Translations under genes and position numbers: made by a program | Shown: positions 38,269 through 61,341 of the stretch, piece after piece | How positions within the stretch are numbered: the stretch's first letter is position 1 | Layout of the letters: the number at the start of each line of letters is the position of its first letter | The notes under the pieces: generated by a model | Told to the model about the DNA's origin: nothing | The model's input: only the letters and a program-made list of their open reading frames with translations | Database searches by the model: none | Source: Phellopilus nigrolimitatus | Lineage: Eukaryota > Basidiomycota > Agaricomycetes > Hymenochaetales > Hymenochaetaceae | Length of the DNA: 64,000 bases | Reading direction: 5' to 3' | NCBI GenBank assembly: GCA_021029095.1 | Contig: JAJOHG010000020.1 | Coordinates: 62,001 to 126,000, forward strand

Positions 38269-38334
38269 GTGAGTTTCTGGTTTGATTTGAGCTACTTCAT
38301 CAGGAAAATGGATTTTCAGCGTTGGTTTGTAGAC

Positions 38335-39075
38335 GTCTGTAGACATCTGTAGCGTCACATAGCTATTGTAGCAAAATTGTAGTGTTGACTTGTAGCACTG
38401 TAGACGTCTGTAGCGTCTGTAGCTTACTGTAGCTTACTGTAGCTCTATAGGTACATAGCAGGGTTGCACTGTAGACATCTGTAGCTTACTGTAGCTTACT
38501 GTAGCTTACTGTAGCTTACTGTAGCTCTATAGGTACATAGCTGGGTTGCACTGTAGACGTCTGTAGCTTACTGTAGCTCTATAGGTACATAGCTGGGTTG
38601 CACTGTAGACGTCTGTAGCTTACTGTAGCTCTGTAGCTTACTGTAGCTCTGTAGGTACATAGCTGGGTTGCACTGTAGACGTCTGTAGCTTACTGTAGCT
38701 TACTGTAGCTTACTGTAGCTTACTGTAGCTCTATAGGTACATAGCTGGGTTGCACTGTAGACGTCTGTAGCTTACTGTAGCTCTATAGGTACATAGCTGG
38801 GTTGCACTGTAGACGTCTGTAGCTTACTGTAGCTCTATAGGTACATAGCTGGGTTGCACTGTAGACGTCTGTAGCTTACTGTAGCTCTGTAGCTTACTGT
38901 AGCTCTGTAGGTACATAGCTGGGTTGCACTGTAGACGTCTGTAGCTTACTGTAGCTCTGTAGGTACATAGCTGGGTTGCACTGTAGACGTCTGTAGCTTA
39001 CTGTAGCTCTATAGGTACATAGCTGGGTTGCACTGTAGCATCTGTAGCTTCCTGTAGCTCTGTAGGTACATAGCG
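38335..39075. repeat. 52-bp minisatellite with inner CTGTAGCTTA repeats
   Basis: The main unit is about 52 bp and contains CTGGGTTGCACTGTAGACGT, then a variable number of CTGTAGCTTA decamers, then CTATAGGTACATAG. It begins about 60 bp after the donor site of the preceding gene, so it lies in what would be its intron, and ends where the HMG-box fragment begins. Confidence 0.9.
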
Positions 39076-39129
39076 TGGCAGCTTGGGAAATATATAGTAG
39101 ATGTATAGTATGTATAGTAATTGTATTGT

Positions 39130-40470
39130 ATGATTCAATCCTGCAGCGACGCCGGACAAGAACTTGTAGTCCACGTCCAACAGGCTCGAGAGCGAGGACA
39201 GGTCATCGTCGATGATGCTCGGGCCCGTCTTCGCCTTCGGAGACGGTGGCTTGCGAGTGCGGGGTGTCTCGGTGCGTGCCCGCTTCGATGGCGAGCGGCG
39301 CGCGTCGTTGCCGCTGCCCGTGGTGCTCGCGCTCACTGCCGACTCCACATCACAATCCCCAAGCGTGCACTTCGTGCTACGCTTGAGCCGCAGGGTGATG
39401 GGCGGCTACCCCACGGGTAGGGCGCATGCGCGCTGGGTGACCGAGACGCTCACGAGCAGGTCGAGGCTGCCCGCGGCAGATGCTCAGGAGGTCGTGCTCA
39501 TGCTCGTACTCCTGGATCTCGGCCTTGAGGCTTTTGAGCTACGAGCGCGTGCGCTAGAGGTGGTCTCCTTCTCGAACTTGAGCAGCTTGCGCTGGCGCGC
39601 GGCGAGCGCATCCGCAAAGCTCGGCGCGAGTTTGGTGAGCATGTGCAGGAGCGACAGCACGAAGCGGCGCACGAGCTGCGGGCACCTGCATGGTGGTGCG
39701 GCCGGTCCTATCTGGAGGGTGAAGCTCGAGAGCGGGTTGCGCGTGTCGACCGAAAGCCCGTTCGAGAGGGAGGGCATCATGAGCGACATGGTGAGTGACT
39801 CGGAGTCGGCCATGTTGAAGTCGCCGTCGGCCATGTTGAGCTCGCACAGCTGGAAGTGCTCGCCCTCATAGCTGTCGCCGGAGTCAAAGTCGGCGAAGTT
39901 TTCTGAGTCGACAGTGCTGACAGAACCGGACGCGCTGCTGACAGCGGAGCACAAAGACGAGTTGCGCGTAAGCAGGCCGTTCGTGCCGCACACGCGGTTC
40001 GTCAACTTATCGCGCTTTTCGCAGCACTCCTTGCTGTCCTTCTTTGCTGCCTTCCCGTCCGCTCCTGCGCCTGCACCCATAGTCATCGACGAGGACGACT
40101 TGCCCTTCTCCTCCCACGTGCGCGTCGGCTGGTACACGTACCAGTACTTGCGATCCTCGGCCGATAGCGACCGCTATCGCTGGGAGATCGTCTTGGAAAG
40201 GTCGATCTGGCGCTAGCGTCGTGCGATTGAGACGCCCTCGGAGACGGCGACGGCTTCCTCAGCGCTCTTCTTGAGACAGCTCTTTCGCATGGGTCGGAAC
40301 AGGGATGATGGCATTCTCGGGGCGCTTGATGTAGTCCTCGTTGTCGTGCTTGGGCTTGCACCGATGAACTGGAGGGTGGTTGGGCGGCTGCTGGAGGATG
40401 GCAAGTGAGATGCTGGAGCCGTGGCAGCAGTGGGCGAGGGTGATGGGCTCGCCTGCGTGGGATCAACGTA
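39130..40470 (-). pseudogene. HMG-box transcription factor fragment
   Basis: On the minus strand, DPTQASPSPSPTAATA (about 40,455) leads to a HMG-box core: DNEDYIKRPENAI in one frame, then in others IDLSKTISQR, a stop, and RSLSAEDRKYWY (about 40,215-40,140). The stop (TAG) stands where Trp is almost invariant in HMG boxes. A Ser-rich tail follows (MYQPTRTWEEKGKSSSS, SLTMSLMMPSLSNGLSVD, ALAARQRKLLKFEKETTS). The last piece, RRSPSKRARTETPRTRKP and IDDDLSSLSSLLDVDYKFLS, runs to about 39,150. The sequence is GC-rich against AT-rich surroundings. Several frame switches and the nonsense codon show it is dead. The part of the HMG box before the Trp is also scrambled between frames. Confidence 0.65.
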
Positions 40471-41819: not shown

Positions 41820-44800
41820 CTAATATACTTCCTGGAAGGTTGTTTTGTCCGCAAAACAATTTACGTAGAACTGCTTTGCCAATTCAACTGCAGTGTCACA
41901 GGTCCAATCTGCAGGACAATTTTCACCGTATCTTGGAATAAGCTCCACTGGTCTCCAGATGTCAACCAATCGAATGATAACTCCCTTCCGACTTCCGTCA
42001 GATCGCAAACGGCGCTCAACGCGGAACATTTCAATGTTGTCATCCGGGACATGTGCTATTACTCCATTGTCTTGCATTGCAGTCGAATTTCGTACAGGTT
42101 GAAATACCTGCACGTATGCAAGTGGTTCACTGTCTTTCCGAAGATCGTGATATACTCCTTGGAAAAGCATACGGACCTGACCAACGAAATGGCCTTCGTG
42201 TATATTCAGCAAGAATTCATCTCGTTACTTTTTGTATGATTTTGTGCTCACCTTGTATACCCTGCACCTTAGCATCCGGTCTGTCTTTACAGAGTACGAA
42301 GTTGTATCTTCCTAGTGGTAGTCTCTCTGACGGCGGAGCGGCAAGAACCTTGACCTTGGGTAAAGCATTATCTGCGTCTTGAGGATCCTTCAACTGTATT
42401 GACACATTCCACCAGGTGTTCATAGAGTTGAATGGCAAAAGGACCCGGAGTCCTTTACGATCTATGCCAAGATCAGCGGACTTGAAATAGTGGATAAGTT
42501 CTTTGCGAAGGTCCGGGATGTCGTAACGTGCCATAGCCGCCATTATGCCAAGGTCTTTCTGTGAATACTTTGAAGGCAGGATGAATGTAGTAGTATCGTT
42601 GCGAATTGCTCTTTTGTGATCGGAATAAGATGGGATGGCTGCAGGGAGAAATCTGTCGATGAGACGCTTGTAAGTGCGTTGCCGTATCTTTACTTGGTCA
42701 GATGTTATCATAGGTGAGTGCCGTCGTTCTGCATCAGTTAATCCCACGGGGAAGTCTCCAGTCGTGTCCGTCTGACAATCATTCCACTCCAGAAGCCAGT
42801 CGAATAAGCGCACTCGCTCTTGTCTATCAAGAAACCTACACATTTGTGATGCAAATTCCTTTCTGTTGGTGGATCTGTAAGGTATCTTTGCCATCTCGAT
42901 ATGACACCGTTCCGTTTGATCACTCGAAAACTGTGCAACAGATCCAAGGGCTTTTATGTGTCGCTCAACGTTCTGCATGAGCTCGAGTTTGGGAATGCAA
43001 AACCTCCCTTTCCTCCTCTTTCCATCTCGTACTCCTGCCCTGCTCAATGCAATCTTGTTTTTGTGGAACTGCTTCAGTGCGTTCCGAAGGTAGGACAAGG
43101 TCTCTGTGGAATGGCTCTCGTATTGAGCAACGTAGATAAAGTCCATTAGCCCGCGGAAGGCTCGCAGGATTTTCACATCGATAGATTTGTGTCCAGCAAG
43201 TACGGCAACGAAGACACGCTCTATATCTCGCTGCTCTCGCCCTGTATGCTGCTTGAAACGTGTAAAACCATCATCAAAATGACGGCATCCAGATCTGGGT
43301 TGAATCACGGACATGCGCCTGTCAATCTCGTCGTTCCCTAAAAGATGCTTTGCCCATTTTACTGCGTGATCGACGAAGAACTTATGCCATTGGTGAAGCG
43401 CATCTGGAGCCAGGAAACATGAAGGATCTGCAGATTCCCAGTCCCGCCAAAATGGAAGGTGAACTCCGTTTAGGCCAACCATCTTTGCTTCTTTGAGGTA
43501 TCGTTTCAGTTTATATGGATCACACGATCTCGATAATTCTGATATTGCAAGCAACGTCTGAGCTCCTACGCGTGGTGGATGTGGATATGCGTCTCCGAAC
43601 TGGTGATATTTTGCAGTCGATGTCGCCGCCTCGCTACTCGCCACTGCAGCTATTACCTGTTGCTCTGGATTGTCAGAAATGTGGACGACCAGGAGTAATC
43701 GTGTGAGGCGTATGTTTCCAGAAGGATCTGCCATGCACTCTGGAACGACAGAGCATTTTTTCATGTTTGCAGTGACGATATCCATGCAATCATGGTATAA
43801 TCTGTTCGAAAGTAAGCCCTGTAGATCCTGTTCATGAAATTTCGCAACAGGGATCTGTGCTATCATGAGCCAACAGTGTGCGGAGGCCTTCGTCCGAAGT
43901 GATTTAAAGATATTGCCGCATGAAATGTAAACGGCATGACATTCTTTATCCCCCTGATGATTTGTCAGATGGGTCTTGTCTGAACCGAGCATAACAAGTC
44001 CGAGCGTTTCCCCTGCACCGACGTTATCCTATACAAATAGTGTAAGTCCAGTTCGTCCTCCTCCACGAATCTACACATACCTGTACATCCCATACGTAAT
44101 CTCCGGTCATGATTTCGCTGTATAACCGTTCTTTTTGTGTATTGTCAGTGTATACGCGTCGTGGAATGAAGTCCATGTGATTTTGGAACAGAGGGTTTCC
44201 GAATAGATATTTGAAACACTCCAGTCCATCCCTATACAATAGAGTTAACGGTTTCTTCGTCGTTCCGCCTTTCACGGAAACCTTTGTTTCCTTCCATTTT
44301 GGCGGGCTCGGTAGCTTCTCGATCTTTTCTCTCATCTCCTTACAAGATGTGAATGAAATGTCGGGTTTTCGGGGTGCCTTTCTCGCAAAATTGAATTATT
44401 ACTAGATCAATATATGCTTAGGAAGGGGTATTATATCTTACCAGTTTCAGTTTGAAGAAAGTGTCTACTTTCTCCATGGATACATTCAAATCTTGAAGCC
44501 ACTTTGCAAGCTCCCAATCATCCACGTTGTTGAAAGGATAATATGGGTTGCGTATCCGTTCTTCATAGAACGGATCGGCAGTCCACGTTTCTGAGAAGCG
44601 GTTATTGCCAAAACCAAAGATTTTCCCTGCGATTGGGTGGAGCTCGGTAAATTGACCTAGATTCTCTTCGCGGTCCCCAGCAGACTCTGAGGAAACACTA
44701 TCTTCGCCATCAGCTGAAGAGCCTCTGACTTCATCGCCACCCCCGACATTGTATTCGAGGTGAAATCCTTGGAACACGTTCCCAAATTCTTCATCATCTA

Positions 44801-45026
44801 CATCCTCCCCTTCGTCGTCGCTACGAGGAGGGCCAGTGGAATCACTCTCTTCGTCCGATACCCACTCCTCTCGATCGTCTGATGCTTCATTCTTGTTTGT
44901 CCAGTCCCAGCACAATTTCGTACAGCCTATATGTTTCTTTAGATTGCCAAAGGTACCGAAACGCTTCCTGCACTTGGGGTTCGAACATCGTATGGGGAGC
45001 TGAACCCGAGCAGTAATTTTTCGCAT
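41820..45026 (-). CDS. Plavaka-type transposase (CACTA/CMC-related DNA transposon)
   Basis: Starts MRKITARVQLPIRCSNPKCR at 45,026 with a C2H2-like finger (CSNPKCRKRFGTFGNLKKH) and an acidic linker. Exon 1 ends near 44,442. The next exon gives PPKWKETKVSVKGGTTKKPL and TLLYRDGLECFKYLFGNPL. The main exon from 43,992 has LGSDKTHLTNHQGDKECHAV, GVHLPFWRDWESADP, ALHQWHKFFVDHAVKW, EQRDIERVFVAVLAG and SDQTERCHIEMAK, ending after a last exon at 41,820. SDKTHL...GDK, the D/H-rich core and the TER(C)HI motif are typical of Plavaka transposases, which are abundant in basidiomycetes. Introns are short and no stop or frameshift was seen, so the gene may be intact. Terminal repeats of the element were not identified. 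Confidence 0.85.
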
Positions 45027-45179
45027 TGTGGTCTTCGAGCTGGGATACAGGGAAGCAAAGAAAAGAGAATTTGGAGAATTGAGATCGAGATATATTTTCA
45101 AGTGGCCTTCGGCGCGTGTTCAAATGCGTAATTCTAGTACACGTACGCTCCTTCGATGATGTAAAGGGCACCTGATAAT

Positions 45180-45820
45180 TATTACGCATGTCCTTTAACA
45201 GCCGTAATTGCCTTGTATTTCGAAGAATCGCCATGAGCGAGGCATGGACTTCTCACATGCTGCAGCAACTCGCAAACGGCGAGGATGGATCTGACGTGCC
45301 CGCACGCGGTGAGAAGACATGCACGACGATAGTCGTGCTGCGAAGCTCCACGATGAATGCGCTCGACGTCCCGGGCGCCACCGCAGTGTAGCTCGAGTTC
45401 GCAGACGGTGAGGGTAGGCCCAGTGTGCTCGCGCGGCGCCACGAGGAACGTCCTGGTCGTCCTGGAGCGCGTGGTCAAAGCCAGCGCGAGCGTGCTCAAT
45501 TTTGCTGTTGTGTAACGCGCGGCTTGTATCAGCTTGGGTGTGGTGGAGCTTGAGCTCACGCAGCGAGTTGAGGCGCGACGGATGAGAGCCGCAGCCGCAG
45601 CACGCGGGCTTCCCAGGCATGAGCGGTATCCAGCCGCAACCGACTGGATCTCAGCCGAAAGAAGAAGGCTTTCAGCAAAGCAGATCCAGACAGTCCCGCC
45701 TTTACCTGGCAACTTTGGCGGTCGTGCTAGTGCTTTCTCGGAGGCCGTGGACAAGGGAGACAGCCAAATAGCACTGTTTACAACTTTCATAGTCATAGCA
45801 TGGGTGAGCCTTTCTTAATT
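45180..45820. other. GC-rich open region, unassigned
   Basis: A 204-codon minus-strand ORF (45,796-45,182) and overlapping plus-strand ORFs are present. The minus frame contains two similar stretches (TLTVCELEL and ILAVCELLQ), but nothing is recognised. It could be another decayed gene fragment. Confidence 0.25.
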
Positions 45821-46774
45821 ACTTAAACCAATTTGCATCCTCATTTTTACGACATCAATGTAGGATAATCTGTTGAGTGTAGCATATCTTATAGCAGAAA
45901 CACAGTAATCAGTATGTCTTGACGAGGTGCAGGAAGGCTCGATTTGGAAATTGATGCTAAGCGATTAACCTCTGTGATCGCCATTGGCTACTATTTTGTG
46001 GCCGAGCATCTTTCTCTCACAATGATGACTATCTTGCGCTATCATTGTTGCCGCCGTTGTCATTGTCGTCCCCGCTGGCCATACACTTGAGAAAATGCCC
46101 TACCTCAAGTTTCACTATCCGTACAGGACGCCAATGGAACTGCTCTCCTTCCAGCTGGCGAAGCCCAACAGTGCTGCGTCGTCTGCAGCCGTGAGGGAGT
46201 ATGCCAACACACAGAAAGCGATAACATCGGCATACGGGGCCATTGGACAGAATTACACGGAAATGACAATTGATATGAAGTCCCATCTCCTCGACTATTT
46301 CATGCAGGCCGCGTCGGAGTCTATCGTTCGACCAGCGTCGTACTATGAGACGCTCCCGAAGTCGGTCAACGAGGTGTTCGTCACCAATATAGGTGAGCGA
46401 ACTAAGCACAAAGAGTTCCTACTTCACCTTTTGCATGGTGTGGTGAGTCACTTTGTTCTTTCTTTTGTTGGCGCGCTGGAGACGATCTCTTACAACAGTG
46501 CATTGCGTTGGAGCATGAGACGGAAACACATGCAATTAGAGCTCACCACGAGTCCTTAAAACCCGTGAGGACCCGTGACCAAACCCGGACTACAGATCCG
46601 TATTCACGGATCACCCGTTGACGGGTGATCCGTGGGAAACGGTTTGTCACGGGTCCGGGTCGAGAATTTGTGATTTTTCAATACCCGCGGGTAGTTCACA
46701 GGTTTTCAAGGACAGTGTAGCAGTAGTATATTCATTCATATATTGTATGTACATGTATATATATACGTAGCAGT

Positions 46775-47430
46775 GCTATCGGTTTCCGTCGTCGATGAAC
46801 TGCACGAAGGGGCGGCAGCGCGCAATCAGTGTCGGTGACGAGTGGGACCGGAATATCACCCTCCCTGAGCGAGTGGCACGGAGTGAGGAGGAAGTTTGGA
46901 TTTGTTGAGCAGCGCGGAGGTCGTCGGAACTGCGTTGATCGCGCAGCGCTGGTAAGATGGGTCTGCGTGCGGCAATGGTGAGACGCACCCATTCGGCAGT
47001 AAGTGGATCTCAAAAGGCGGCGCGTATAGCTCGCGCGGGCAGGCGGGGGCCGTCAGTAGCTTTGTGGTATACAGTGCGTGTGGCTTTTTCCCGTCTCCGA
47101 GCCCCATCTGCGAGAACTGGTCAGTCACTGTGCCCATCTCCTGCTGGTATCCCGGCTACACAGGTGGATGCACGGGTGCGCCGCTACCGAAGCCAGTCAC
47201 ATTGGTGTTCTTGAATGCGGCAGACTGGAATGACTGCTGAGTCTGCTTCCCCGTAGACTGGCCCTCGCCGACAAGGCTGGGCGTGAAGAGTTGCCCACTC
47301 GGAGCAGGTTGCGTGCCCGGTACCACACCTGGCGCAGGCGGCATCCTGGCGTCGTACCCAGGATCCGCGCCATAACCATCCGCTCCGCCGTAGTATGCCT
47401 GCGTCACGCCTGCTGTGTATTGCATACTGC
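46775..47430 (-). pseudogene. SEC24 N-terminal fragment captured in the hAT element
   Basis: The minus strand reads QAYYGGADGYGADPGYDARM with Pro/Gln-rich sequence, then VTDQFSQMGLGDGKKPHALY, LYTTKLLTAPACPRELYAPP, EIHLLPNGCVSPLPHADPSY, INAVPTTSALLNKSKLPP, SLREGDIPVPLVTDT and IARCRPFVQFIDDGNR followed by a stop. This is the disordered N-terminus and the lead-in to the zinc finger of SEC24, the cargo-binding COPII coat subunit at ER exit sites. The segment between IARCR and PFVQFID that holds zinc-binding cysteines is deleted, and frames change near 47,155 and 46,895. Only about 200 of roughly 900 residues are present. Confidence 0.85.
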
Positions 47431-47639
47431 CGCCGTTTTGAGTGAAGCGCGGGCGTATCCAGTAGAGCTAGTTGCACGGCGCCCGGAGCTTGTTCTGGCA
47501 CATCCCACTGCGTATGCCCTGTGGCAGTTTCTGTCGGACATGTCGACATTGTCGTTCAGCGGCGCACTTTGGGGAGAGTTACAATACACACACCAATGAA
47601 CAAATATCCCTGGCTATTGGCTCCTGGATCTCAGAGTTG

Positions 47640-49012
47640 TCTTGCACTTCGCACGCGCGCGACAGAGATGGCCGTCTTTCTCGAACTCGAGGGGCGTGCT
47701 GCACGCCGAGGATGTGCCCGGCTGTGGCTGCGCGATGCGGAAGGGCGACTCGGTGCTCTCGACCGGGCCCCTTTGCTGGACGTGTGACTTCACGGGCACG
47801 ACGGGCGACGCGCCGCCGCTCGCGGGCGAGACCTCGCGGAGGCGGTTGATGAGTGGTCTGCTGTGCGCGGACGCGCTGATCGCGAGTCCCTGCGACCTGT
47901 CCGTGCCTTCGAGCGTGGTGGCGGGCGTCGACATGTCCTCGCCTTCGGAGTTGCGCAGGATCAGCGAGGACGACGGCACGCCGGCCTGGGTGGAGTACGA
48001 GAGGTACTCAGCGAAGGAGAGCAGCAGACTCGACGCTTCGCAGCTGTCATGCGACACGCTTCCGCAAGCGGAAACAGCTGACAAAGGCCGAAAGACGCCC
48101 GCAAAGCCGCTCTGTCCCCCGCCGCTGCCTTCTCCCCTCCTGTGCCCTCGTCGCACGTTCCTCGCTGCACTTATTCTGGCCTCGAAATTCTTGCAAGACA
48201 GATGCTACTCAAACCGTGCATGGAGCAAACTCCCCGGGCTTCCCGCGCAGGAGGTCGGCCGCTGCGAACGCGCTCTCGGAGATGCGCTAGAGTGGCGTTT
48301 GTGGGTCGGTAAAGGTGCTTCGGTGCCCGAGGAACGCTCGTGCTCGATCTGAGAACGAAGAGCGAGAGTGCAGTTTCAAGGTCGGCGTCTCCTGCTGCGC
48401 GTGCGTCATCAAATATGCCGAGCCCGCTGCTGTCGGATTCCGGTGCAAGTCCAGAGATTGGGTGCGTGCTACCTTTGCTGCCGCCCGCGTTACAGTGCCG
48501 CTCAAAGCGGCCAACCAATGATGCTGTTGATCCCACCCGCTTCGCAGATGCCAAGCGCGTCGAACCCCATCCGACATGAACTTTATCGCACTAGACGAGA
48601 CGACACCGCGCTTTTCTTACTCGCCCGTGTCCCTCGTCGAGCCCAATCTCAACACCCCGAGTGCGCCTCGTTCAGCGCCTCGTGGTCGCATGCGCACAGC
48701 ACGAGCTCGTCGGACTCATCCGAGTCCGGCTCGAGCGGCGGATCCATCGTGATGCACCCGGAGGTGCTTCGCACGTTTGCGCCGGGATCCGCGGCCAGCT
48801 CCAGTACGCAGCGCGCCGCCGTGTCGCGCGCGAACTCTCTCTACAATGAGTATGCGAAGACCGCCGCCCGCGATGCGGCACTCAGGTGCTTCCCGCCGGT
48901 GGACGCGAAGGACGTGACGGACCCGGCGTCGTGGTACGCGCAGGTCCTGTCCTCGAGCGGCGGCGTGTTCGGCAGCGGCCAGGTGTCCATGCTGGACAGC
49001 CTGGGCAGCTAG
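47640..49012 (+). pseudogene. Pcl5-like cyclin fragment captured in the hAT element
   Basis: A 236-codon frame (47,642-48,352) contains MSSPSELRRISEDDGTPAWV and then a cyclin-box segment: PRRTFLAALILASKFLQDRC, YSNRAWSKLPGLPAQEVGRC and ERALGDALEWRLWVGK. This is the second half of the cyclin box of Pcl-type (Pho85 partner) cyclins. Downstream, Ser-rich tail pieces continue in other frames (SESAVSRSASPAARASS; ALDETTPRFSYSPVSLVEP; VMHPEVLRTFAPGSAASSST; ending VSMLDSLGS at 49,012). At least two frame changes occur after the cyclin box. It differs from the cyclin fragment at 22-23.6 kb, so two separate cyclin genes have been copied into this neighbourhood. Confidence 0.75.
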
Positions 49013-50559
49013 TGGTACGGGCACGCCGCACACATGGTTGTTGGCGCAGCACCCCCGCGGGACGCTCGAGGCTCGTTTCGCGCGCGCGGCGCTTGTGCAC
49101 TCCACCATACACGGTGTCGGTGGCTACTTGCGCTGCAGAGCGGGACAGGGATGCATGTTTTCTTTTGTCTTTATTATTATAATAACACTACATAAACCCG
49201 TGAACTAACCGTCGACCCGCTTGACCCGCACCCGCGGGTTTCTGAGGACCCGTGGATCTGTGTCCCAACGGATCCAGGTCAAGACGGGTCCGGGTCGAGG
49301 ATTTTTCGTCACGGGTGACCCGCCAACGGGTCCGGTTCAACCCACGGGTGGACTCGTGGTGAGCCCTACATGCAATAGTTGCCCTCTATAATTCTGATTC
49401 TGTTAATTACAATATCGCAAACCAACCAGCGGAGGATCTTGCTGCAGCAATCGATTTTCGTATGCCACCTCTCCTCCTCCATCATTCGCCCATCCAACTC
49501 GGTCAGGTCACGGAGAATTTTGGGGTAAATGTTGCGCGTTTGTTATTCAACGTCGCGAATGAACACAAAAAGCGTCGTAAGTGGTCAGCAAAGGTTGGGC
49601 GGGTGCGTGATGGTATATTGTTGTCGTTAAGCTGTCACTAACACTACAAAAGACGGATTGCTATTCTGCACCGAAACAAACGGAGCCAATGCCCTCGCCG
49701 CTGCTGCAGACAAACAAGTTACTGCTATCCCCACCGCGTTCTCCTGAAAAGTCAAGAAATACGTCTCCATCCATCACTAGAACCGTCTCGTCATCTTCTC
49801 CATCACCAGAGTCATCAGTCTCCTCAACGTCGACAATGGGCAAAACAATGGGAGGGCGCGGCAGCTTGATGAAGGAATTGGACGATGACGAAGAGTCTTT
49901 GTGGGAAGGACTCGACGACATTAGCATAGCCGACTTCGAAGAGGCCCAGGAGTCCATCGACAGGTCCTATAATGTGCCATCCGTAGGCATTCCCACGAAC
50001 ACTTACGACGGCTACATTATGCGGGCTAATCAAGTAGACTTGGAGGAGTCCCCTTCCTATGCTGGTAGGTTTTATATGGTGCCGACAGCCACTCCGCCAT
50101 CAAATTTCTCGCCATCTCGCCAGCGTGTCAATGTATCCGCTGATCCCCTCAGGGTTTCTCGTCACGCGTCGCAGCAGGACAACTACGAGCAGCAGCAAAC
50201 GCGTCGCATGCCGCAGCAGGACAACTACGAGCAGCAGCGAACACGTCTCGCGCCGCAGCAGGCCAGCTATGAGCAGCAGCAAACGCGTCGCATGCCGCAG
50301 CAGGACAACTACGAGCAGCAGCGAACACGTCTCGCGCCACAGCAGGCCAGCTACGAGCAGCAGCAAACGCGTCGCATGCCGCAGCAGGACGACTACGAGC
50401 AGCAGCAAATGCGTTACGTGGATGAACAACATGCACCTGGCAATGAATATCAGGCCGCTCGGGAGAGCACTACACGCAGTAGGAAGGGGAAACAGCGTGC
50501 GCCTGCAGCTTCGCAGGCAAGACGCGGTGGCTACAATGCTTAATCTGGTTGCTTGTCAT

Positions 50560-53133: not shown

Positions 53134-56100
53134 ATGTCTGTCATTGTCGTCCACGCACAGCCCGACTGTCCCATTCCTTTGTCGAACAACATGTCTGCTG
53201 TCTCAGCTTCTGACACTTTAGGAGAGTTCATTCGAGAGCGGAGAGTAGCGAATGGCTCTGGTATACCCATCGCATTCCTACTTACACCTATTGGAGCATC
53301 AGCGCCCTTTTATTGCTTGCCATCGTCATGGTCAACGTACCCTATCCCGGACTATGGGCCTTTGACTGCTTCTGGGATTGTTTCACGTCTCTATCGGACG
53401 ATGATGTCCTTTAACATGGCGCTCATTTCAAGTTTGAGAGCAAGCCAACCAAATGATCGATCGCTCGCCCGCGCATCTGTCTCGGTCACTGGATGCACCG
53501 AGTGGTACCACGGCATTATGCAAGCTATGCTCTTCGACAGGGTTGACTGGGCTGTACGGTCGAGCGGCGCAACTGGTCCAATTCTCCGCAACGAGCAGAC
53601 ACCATACACGAAACCAACTGCGCTCCCAAAGCAAGCTGAACGTATGTGGGAGATCTATCGGAATTGGCCCGAGACAGCATCGTTGTTCGTTACTGCTTGG
53701 GTCGCGAGCGAATCTGAAGATATCGAAATGGAGTACCCCTATGTAACCAATGAAAACGATGGTCAAAAAGCCATTGGCCCGGCTGGAAACGATGGTGAAG
53801 GGGCCATTGGCCTGGTTGAGGATGACAACGCCAAGTCTACCACTGGCTCCGGCACTGAGTCCACTGGTCGTACGTGGTATGGGGTGCGTAGTGTGGTAGA
53901 ATCTCTTGTGCGAGGGACAGAGCAGACTTCCGCGGCTATGCACGTAAACCTCGTAGAGAATAACTTCTGCTGGGCTGCTCTAGGTTTACTCGCTATCTCA
54001 CTGGTAAGCTTTTTTTCTGTGCGTCTTACATTTCGTTTCAAACTAGTAATTTTTCATTCAAATCATGTCCGGCTTCTTTCCCTCACCTTCTCCCCCCTTT
54101 TCTTTTCCTTCATTGAAACGCAGCGTTTGTTTTTCTAAATTACATTTGTTTTAGCGCGCGTTGGATGAAATGAAACACGTGACCCGTGCTATCAGTGACG
54201 GAGCCATGCCGAAGAAGAGGTTGACTGAGTATTTAGCGTAAGTGACTATATCTCTAGCCTCTACTTTGAAGAGCAATTTTCTCATTGATTGCATCAGTGA
54301 CAACTATGGACACCTTCCGAAAGAAATCGCAGGATTAGCAGATTACGACTTACTTCGTCCACTTTACGCGCTGGCAGGAATCTCACCAATCGTGTTGCTC
54401 AGTAAATTACAAATCACGGTAACTGGGAAATGCAAAGTCGGCCTATCGCACCTTGCTGAGGTGTGCAACAAGTACAATTTTGGCCTTTTCCCCTTTGCTA
54501 AATCCTTTTTTCCAGTCAATTACGCATCCTTCTCTCAATGACGACCGGTCCCGCCGCTATATCGAAAGCGATCTCATCAGAGTTGTCGTTACAATGGCCC
54601 TGAAGGGACGTTCCCATTTCAAAACATGCATGGGGCCAGTGATCCAGAGATGGCGTGAATATGGTGTCATAACTGAGTCAAATACAGTTGCACCGGAAAA
54701 ACCTGTCACTGAAATTGACCTAGCTGGTTCTTTCAGGCGTGCGCAGGAAACACAACCAGCAGGCTTCCGCATGATACAGAGTCTTACAAAGATGCTCGAG
54801 AAGATCGGCAGGCGATCCAAAGCGAAGAGCCATGAACTCATTGACATCGCGCAAGTCATAAACCTCTCGGGTGAAATACCCTCGTGGCTAGCATCCGCAC
54901 TCGTCTCCGAGTCATCGAAGAAGACTTCGCCTTTGTCGGGGAAGGACACCGATACCGAGACATCTGAAGACGACGAAACGCGATGCAGCAAACGCGAGAA
55001 GAAAGGCGTTGAACGTGGCCTGGGTGGAGAACTGGGGAAGCTGAGTTTGAAACGAAACAGAAAGCGAAACAAGCAGCCGGAATTCTCAGAAGACGAATAC
55101 ATTGATAAGTCACAACCATTATTAAAGGAAGGTGGAGCGAAGGAAAGGCTTGCTGGAAAGGGAAACAACAAGCGAGGAGCAGAGGACGACATCGAACTGA
55201 ACGATAAGACATCTCGGGTGAAGAAATCGCGACGCATTGATGATTCCGACGACAGCGATGACTCAATCGGAAACATATTTTCTGCTGACTATGTTGCTCC
55301 AACATTCCAGTTCGAATATGTAGATTTTTCGAAACCTCCTCGTGGTGTACGTATACCAAATTCATGATGCTGCATCGTGATTGATATTCCATCCCTTCCC
55401 ACAGACCTCCCGGACTTGTACTTTTCACCTTCTGTACCCCTTGGAAAGTTCTGAGGACATTGTGATGAGCGCTGCTGGCGATGAACGCTCTTCTATCGCT
55501 CCGGAGGCCTCACCTAGCGATCCGGAACACAAAGAGATGGAAAGACGTGAGGACATTGTGACGAGCGCTGCTGGCGATGAACGCTCTTCTATCGCTCCGG
55601 AGGCCTCACCTAGCGATCCGGAACACAAAGAGATGGAAAGACGTGAGGACATTGTGACGAGCGCTGCTGGCGATGAACGCTCTTCTATCGCTCCGGAGGT
55701 CCCACGTAGCGATTTGGTATACAATACAATTGCAAAGGATGACGATGGCTTTGGTTCACCGCTCACACCTCTCGTTTCATCTCCTGACCCGCCAAACACA
55801 GAAGCGTGTGTCCTTTCCAAAAAGTCCGTTCAGCGCGAGAAGTCTCCATGCGACCCTGGGTACCTTGACTGGGAAACCATCAAGTATGAGTACTCTTTCG
55901 ATAAATTGACAATTCCGGTTTGGCCGAGCTTAGTAAGTTTTGCGGCTGCTTTTAACTAAATGATGTTGATGACGTGTCATTGCAGTGGGATGGATTTGCC
56001 GAGCGTTTACGACTGCTGAAAGCCAGTAAGGGCAAACAGCCTTCAAGTTGCACGATAACATTACTGCGTAAGGATTGGGACAGGCTGGATTTGGCACAGC

Positions 56101-60679: not shown

Positions 60680-61300
60680 GAATCGATCCAACAAGATACC
60701 TACAGTGCTACGTACTATCAGCACAACGTACCTACAATGCTATGTACCTACAATGCTACGTACCTACGTACCTACGATGCTACGTACCTACAATGCTATG
60801 TACCTACGATGCTACGTACCTACAATGCTACGTACCTACGTACCTACGTACCTACAATGCTACGTACCTACAATGCTACGTACCTACGTACCTACGTACC
60901 TACAATGCTACGTACCTACAATGCTACGTACCTACAATGCTACGTACCTACGTACCTACGTACCTACGTACCTACAATGCTACGTACCTACAATGCTATG
61001 TACCTACAATGCTACGTACCTATGTACCTACAATGCTATGTTGGGCAATATAGTGGGTAGGTATCTATGAACCACTACAAAGCTACAATGCTACGTACCT
61101 ACAATGCTACGTACCTACAATGCTATGTACCTACGATGCTACGTACCTACATCACTATACAGCTACAGCGCTACATGCCTATAGTGCTATGGAACTATGG
61201 ACCACCCACGCTATGTTGGGCAATATAGTGGGTAGGTATCTATGAACCACTACAAAGCTACATGACCTATATTGTCCTATATAGGAGTGTGTAGCGTCGG
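60680..61300. repeat. 16-bp CTACGTACCTACAATG minisatellite
   Basis: Units CTACGTACCTACAATG alternate with extra CTACGTAC steps from about 60,700 to 61,035. A 50-bp-scale block (TATGTTGGGCAATATAGTGG ... TATGAACCACTACAAAGCTA) occurs twice, at about 61,037 and 61,210. It ends about 40 bp before the acceptor site of the following gene. Confidence 0.9.
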
Positions 61301-61341
61301 AAAATTTCCTGATGTTGTTCTAATGCATGTTGTGATTTAGC

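Follow-up and report, generated by a model that had tools for sequence, protein, structure and literature searches.

A Pack-hAT element, very probably a recent arrival, in the cargo gene of a PlavakaB-type giant transposon of Phellopilus nigrolimitatus

Introduction

How does a piece of DNA with hAT-type ends come to lie inside an exon, and to whom does that exon belong? This question is raised by a 64,000-nucleotide stretch (positions 62001-126000 of contig C113, hereafter the window) in the 56.4 Mb, 635-contig assembly of Phellopilus nigrolimitatus, a wood-decay fungus of the Hymenochaetales (Agaricomycetes). Coordinates without a contig handle are counted from the first base of the window. 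An initial annotation, made from the sequence alone, placed a hAT-like element that splits a host exon at 46529-49376. The analysis presented here indicates that this element is very probably a Pack-hAT, recently inserted into exon 2 of a gene that is itself carried as cargo by a PlavakaB-type giant transposon.

The insertion and its empty site

The element proper covers 2832 bp on the forward strand (46537-49368), as delimited by its ends, its duplication, and its empty site; the annotated span lay in the right place but took in both duplications. Its termini are 19-bp inverted repeats, the left one at 46537-46555 on the forward strand (TAGAGCTCACCACGAGTCC) and the right one at 49350-49368 on the reverse strand (reverse complement TAGGGCTCACCACGAGTCC), with 18 of the 19 bases identical. 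The two ends start with TAGAG and TAGGG, and thus conform to the YARNG-type terminal motif, a hallmark of hAT elements. The sequence CATGCAAT is found on both sides (46529-46536 and 49369-49376), which is the 8-bp target site duplication of the hAT superfamily. Both the inverted repeats and the identical 8-bp flanks, already described in the initial annotation, were recovered by direct reading of the sequence and by a repeat search.

Evidence of insertion also comes from natural copies of the same locus without the element. Positions 45960-46536 of the window are 100% identical to C555:770956-771532, and positions 49369-50540 are 100% identical to C555:771525-772696. Both matches overlap on C555 by exactly the eight duplicated bases, CATGCAAT being present there only once. 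The copy on C390 is also empty at this position, and a more distant paralogue on C544 (78-82% identity) has the stretch uninterrupted. The proposal that a hAT-like insertion splits an exon, whose frame is restored by removal of the element and one duplication, is therefore borne out by empty copies within the same genome, where the initial annotation had suggested looking for an uninterrupted site.

The interrupted gene

The rejoined frame can be read directly from the C555 copy, in which three exons encode 500 amino acids without an internal stop. Projected onto the forward strand of the window, these are exon 1 (46095-46442, with the same structure in C544), exon 2, in a left piece (46499-46536, placed by the C555 frame and the C544 comparison) and a right piece (49377-49602, from the C555 frame), and exon 3 (49653-50543, from the C555 frame and the C544 comparison). 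The rejoined exon proposed initially, 46,499-46,536 continued at 49,377-49,593, is open in C555, but its end has to be moved to 49,602 according to C544. The exact exon limits are inferred, as other splice choices would also leave the frames open. Since read-through from exon 2 into the element meets a TGA at about 46619, the window copy of the gene would be interrupted.

If the insertion lay in an intron of the gene, no exon would be split. This is what the deposited gene model P0001 (DFH11DRAFT_1824379) implies for C555: it aligns to C555:771151-771393, then jumps to 771555-771758, leaving the junction (C555:771532) in an intron. The initial annotation had presented the ends, the duplication, and the rejoined exon as three independent signals; it was right about the ends, while P0001 contradicts the exonic position of the junction. 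Nevertheless, the donor used by P0001, GTGAGC, is absent from C544, and the model is accordingly judged unreliable at the junction. It is a doubtful guide for a second reason: residues 1 to ~234 correspond to C555:769301-770190, which belongs to another hAT element located upstream on C555. The substitution pattern between C555 and C544 also speaks for coding sequence, with a ratio of nonsynonymous to synonymous substitution rates (dN/dS) of 0.14 for exon 2, compared to 0.38 overall, 0.55 for exon 1, and 0.38 for exon 3. At the start of exon 2, in a stretch of 30 codons that includes the junction, 11 changes are distributed as 4/0/7 over codon positions 1/2/3. The coding status of the junction thus rests on conservation with C544 rather than on transcripts, and an intronic position is quite unlikely.

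No Pfam domain was detected in exons 1 and 2 of the cargo gene, and the repetitive exon 3 yielded PF11498 only (4.1e-6, above the cut-off), a match set aside as low-complexity similarity. A protein search with the gene returned one record, from this same genome, and hence no outside homologue spanning the junction.

A giant transposon as carrier

The gene lies within a 23,017-bp element (38298-61314, including the hAT element and one of its duplications) that begins with CATCAGGAAAAT and ends with ATTTTCCTGATG. PlavakaB giants, as described in the available part of PMC12730594, have 5'-CATCA..TGATG-3' termini, 2- or 3-bp duplications, and a Plavaka transposase. The termini of the present element, CATCAGG..CCTGATG, agree with this pattern, and it is flanked by the dinucleotide TT on the left (38296-38297) and on the right (61315-61316). 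Subterminal tandem repeats are found at the left end (38328-39074), with inverted similarity to repeats at the right end (60690-61160). A Plavaka transposase region with several open reading frames (ORFs) occupies 42217-45119 on the reverse strand; its 603-amino-acid ORF (42217-44028), scanned with Pfam over 42220-44028, matches PF18759 (E 1.2e-55) and PF20722 (E 5.6e-14), as expected of a Plavaka transposase. Judged by its termini, duplications, and transposase, the 23-kb element is of the PlavakaB type.

Its limits are confirmed by other copies. The left edge falls exactly at 38298 in C555, C390, and C83, the right edge exactly at 61314 in C555, C390, and C106, and, outside these limits, the flanks of C113, C555, and C390 differ. 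As far as searched, C83 holds a left end only and C106 a right end only. The three longer copies are 99.93-100% identical over compared blocks of 226 to 2,674 bases; identity was also probed with short queries (200 bases) rather than one long query, and the eight probes inside the element all gave 100%, the ninth falling beyond its end. Because the bounds of this element enclose the split gene, and because of its PlavakaB termini and transposase, the initial designation of a host exon needs amending: an exon is split, and the gene travels as cargo on a giant transposon, of which the genome has three near-identical copies.

Given such near-identity, one might suspect alleles or duplicates created by the assembly, in which case the empty site would be an artefact of collapse or of haplotypes. 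Against this, the flanks beyond 38298 and 61314 differ in all three copies, and 2-bp duplications are found in two of the three (TT in the window, TA in C555; C390 is mismatched, with CG/TA). Moreover, every copy has its own hAT element with its own 8-bp duplication. The C555 copy contains a 2148-bp Pack-hAT (C555:768253-770400), inserted at a site corresponding to 45405-45412 of the window, where ACGGTGAG is single in the window and duplicated in C555. The C390 copy contains a 2440-bp Pack-hAT (C390:43567-46006) at the site corresponding to 46311-46318, where GCGTCGGA is single in the window and duplicated in C390; this element is 99.96% identical to one at another site, on C69. As far as compared, each giant-element copy is empty at the hAT sites of the other two. 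An artefact of this kind is highly improbable. The giant element had already been duplicated when the window hAT inserted into one of its copies.

The three copies thus carry one different hAT element each, all within ~1.1 kb. For three points placed at random, such proximity (~1.1 kb of 20 kb) is expected in 0.9% of draws, in a test that was chosen after the pattern had been seen. It is conceivable, though unlikely, that Pack-hATs land in the cargo gene preferentially, or that insertions there are selected.

Through the insertion in C555, an STT3 fragment has also come to lie upstream of the cargo gene in that copy, and P0001 joins both as one protein. Either the model is wrong in combining the STT3-bearing hAT stretch with the cargo gene, or the two form a new chimeric gene. 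If transcribed, such a gene would unite host DNA captured by one transposon with the cargo of another. P0001, apparently fused across two transposons, in any case calls for caution in annotation.

Captured gene fragments

The interior of the window hAT is a mosaic of three pieces. At 46770-47621 (element positions 234-1085), antisense to the element, lies a fragment 82.5% identical to C57:410052-410936. At the C57 source, an open frame encodes the zinc finger and trunk domains of Sec23/Sec24 (PF04810, PF04811); it is taken here to be SEC24-like from its N-terminal part. The longest tblastn block between both has 142 of 180 amino acids alike, and the captured piece is no longer intact, having deletions, frame changes, and an in-frame stop. 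At 48030-49115 (element positions 1494-2579), on the forward strand, a second fragment corresponds to the end of the coding sequence of a cyclin gene and its downstream sequence, with 84.5-97.1% identity to C112:1092356-1093620. The source on C112 is a 590-amino-acid frame with the cyclin domain PF08613 (23.4 bits, cut-off 21), which is still recognizable in an ORF of the window element (22.1 bits), although stops, shifts of frame, and an internal gap or deletion disrupt the piece. Between them, a third piece of captured type (47729-48022, forward strand) has 18 matches in a genome protein search, most of them within further repetitive or chimeric regions, and its source gene was not found in that search. 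On C625, the match to this piece is antisense, beside a septin-like frame.

In other words, hAT ends and a duplication enclose host coding DNA of known source, as in Pack-TYPE elements. Alternatively, the element could have arisen from an autonomous hAT by deletion, with an interior of degenerate transposase sequence and only fortuitous similarity to genes. Such derivatives are frequent in hAT families, and the ends of the window element resemble those of transposase-bearing elements on C603 and C4. This explanation nonetheless has to contend with an interior matching host genes over 850-1100 bp (82-90% identity over the main blocks), genes that encode Sec23/24 and cyclin domains, and with other family members that hold other host genes. 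Furthermore, six interior ORFs were scanned without any match to a transposase family, so the window element is considered non-autonomous. A deletion derivative is thus hardly to be expected, and the hAT-like element of the initial annotation, whose hAT ends and duplication stand, is better described as a Pack-hAT, i.e., a putative non-autonomous carrier of host-gene fragments.

The divergence of the captured pieces includes an excess of C-to-T changes. In the SEC24-like piece, a parental C has become T in the element at 33 of 199 CpG sites and at 25 of 345 other sites, compared to 11/148 and 14/358 in the other direction. The corresponding values for the cyclin piece are 31/312 and 22/392, compared to 12/269 and 22/409. 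This excess is mild, and a strong signal resembling repeat-induced point mutation is absent. A much faster divergence of captured interiors than of ends was considered and dropped, as gap-free identity to the C36 element per 200-bp bin is mostly 82-96%.

A family sharing the same ends

Other copies had been proposed to be traceable through the 19-bp ends, and many were found. With up to three mismatches, the end pattern occurs 153 times in forward and 153 times in reverse orientation in the assembly, vs. 12 and 12 times for the reversed pattern used as a control. Among the matches listed, 31 convergent pairs with ends less than 4 kb apart were tested (one more convergent pair, on C190 and 17.9 kb apart, was left out), and exact 8-bp duplications flank 27 of them (13/13 in a first set, 14/18 in a second). 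Two of the 27, at C55:37107-40499 (3393 bp) and C123:12856-15325 (2470 bp), have the same insertion site and flanks with different lengths, which reduces the number of independent duplication sites to at most 26. This pair represents a single insertion, duplicated and later altered internally. A head-to-head arrangement of two 1562-bp members was also seen at C131:21201-24573, with an exact 8-bp duplication at one only, as if inverted.

The comparison of ends and interiors covered 13 elements, the window hAT and 12 others. About 156-222 bp at each end of the window element are common to all 12. The left conserved end (~170 bp, 46537-46708, forward strand) is 91.5-98.7% identical in 11 of the 12 and 86% in the C1 element, and the right one (~173 bp, 49196-49368, forward strand) is 91.9-98.9% identical in 11 of the 12 and 84.7% in C1. 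Interior sequence is common to some pairs only: several interiors are partly shared and several unrelated, i.e., the same ends enclose differing captured DNA, as known for Pack-TYPE elements. A Pfam scan of ten ORFs from seven other elements gave five matches above the cut-off (STT3 twice, EF-G twice, and UCH) and five below, the positive ORFs coming from four of the seven elements. In the member located on contig C112, a 67-bp GT..AG stretch is kept inside the EF-G coding piece; the sequence across it is taken here to be EF-G. As this stretch is a probable intron, it points to capture from genomic DNA.

Transposase-bearing relatives and a possible mechanism

Candidate sources of transposase were sought by searching the assembly with the PF05699 profile at two thresholds. 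The 5556-bp element at C603:962483-968038 is flanked on either side by TTTCAATA; it has inverted ends that are 18/19 alike and a hAT dimerization domain (PF05699, 22.1 bits, cut-off 21.4), which makes it a related hAT-transposase element with ends of the same type. On C4, a right end 86% identical to that of the window hAT adjoins hAT frames. The C622 locus, with an exact 19-bp end close to a hAT domain, does not form a single simple element, since this end faces away from the domain.

Together with the deposited gene model discussed above, several observations weigh against a recent Pack-hAT insertion as described here, or limit it. The C603 ends are only 86% (left) and 77% (right) identical to those of the window hAT, the other end of the C4 element was not found within the 5.2 kb examined, and no transposase copy was found with ends as close as those of the family members are to each other. 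Four of the 31 end pairs have no exact duplication (C131:21201-22762, two on C13 with identical flanks, and one on C61). The closest interior relatives of the window hAT are only 84-87% identical to it, so no donor copy is seen. Finally, in view of the divergence from the source genes, the captures are old, even with a recent insertion.

For a recent Pack-hAT insertion into exon 2, the most likely mechanism is the following. A hAT transposase provided in trans, for instance by the relatives on C603 and C4, would cut the Pack-hAT from an earlier site, and a staggered 8-bp cut would allow it to be pasted into exon 2. The interior would have been acquired beforehand from genomic DNA, most probably through template switching while gaps between the transposon ends were being repaired, and the captured pieces would then have decayed, partly via C-to-T changes. 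Copying of genomic DNA between transposon ends has been proposed for Ds and Pack-TIRs in the available parts of PMC3260210 and PMC8277862.

Comparison with known systems

Gene capture by hAT elements is already known, in maize Ds2, in maize and rice Pack-hATs, in frog, and with histone H3 in ascomycetes. The comparisons below refer to the available portions of the papers cited. Maize Ds2 (Ac/Ds, hAT) is reported to contain gene fragments in 2 of 39 cases, with introns kept (PMC3260210). As in the present family, it has 8-bp duplications, about 200 bp kept at each end, and an interior replaced by filler DNA. Unlike Ds2, the family described here is fungal, has another end sequence, and includes many members with fragments, the window element holding two identified genes and a third piece. 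The maize and rice Pack-hAT/Pack-TYPE elements (PMC8903248) and the Pack-TIRs of animals, such as Pack-hAT-N8_XT in frog (PMC8277862), share with it a non-autonomous nature, superfamily-typical ends, and the 8-bp duplication, as well as captured host DNA and an occurrence at several loci. The differences are the kingdom and the larger mosaics found here, with pieces of about 850 and 1,090 bp in one element.

Fungal hAT elements with histone H3 genes are known from Pyrenophora tritici-repentis (PMC3538342) and from Pseudocercospora fijiensis and relatives (PMC6710886), the 8-bp duplications of the P. fijiensis elements being common to the present family. These ascomycete elements carry one gene, intron-less in the P. 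fijiensis copy, inside elements with hAT transposase sequence, whereas several unlinked fragments, a transposase that was not found, and one member with a probable intron characterize the elements studied here. In rusts, hAT7 (PMC12730594) is likewise a basidiomycete hAT carrying a non-transposase gene; it is of autonomous type, with 7-bp duplications and a whole TET/JBP enzyme gene, in contrast to mosaics of host-gene fragments. The window giant element shares its termini, duplication size, and Plavaka transposase with the PlavakaB elements of the same source, and here acts as a landing site. Among mushrooms, Marasmius oreades has active hAT families (MarorhAT-4/10/11/12), whose non-autonomous members share ends with an autonomous one, as proposed here (PMC9674265). 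Those members are short (597-631 bp), and no captured genes are described for them in the portion available, while fragments have been captured in the present case. The Helitrons of Pleurotus are reported not to capture host genes (PMC4289320).

No case of hAT capture appears in the available portions of PMC4289320, PMC13317346, PMC10853768, PMC3516569, and PMC4210507. More generally, no host-gene-fragment mosaic in a basidiomycete hAT was found in the literature, of which few subscription journals were covered, making this weak evidence of absence. The hAT element had no match among public plasmid records. In the fungal cases found, hAT capture concerns one histone gene (ascomycetes) or whole TET/JBP genes (rusts), while one end family here carries mosaics of several housekeeping genes. 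Natural before/after copies in one genome thus document, for a mushroom-forming fungus, a hAT family that shuffles genes and has moved recently. As the cargo gene of a giant transposon is the target of a second mobile element, transposon-on-transposon damage and chimeric gene birth become testable.

Other contents of the giant transposon

Three further observations concern the giant element itself. In the stretch 54240-55850, which encodes a 32-amino-acid repeat, the C555 copy is longer by 288 bases and the C390 copy by 192 bases, both multiples of 96. An open frame at 51908-52708 matches PF25579, the N-terminal TPR domain of TRIP12-like ubiquitin ligases (E 1.8e-14), and, judged by this match, it is a further piece of a host-type gene carried as cargo. 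Lastly, a GC-rich stretch at 39091-40468, possibly the product of an older capture and containing a frame that by eye resembles an HMG box, has many copies elsewhere at 71-82% identity, some of which sit inside hAT end pairs (e.g., C1:2430365-2432680).

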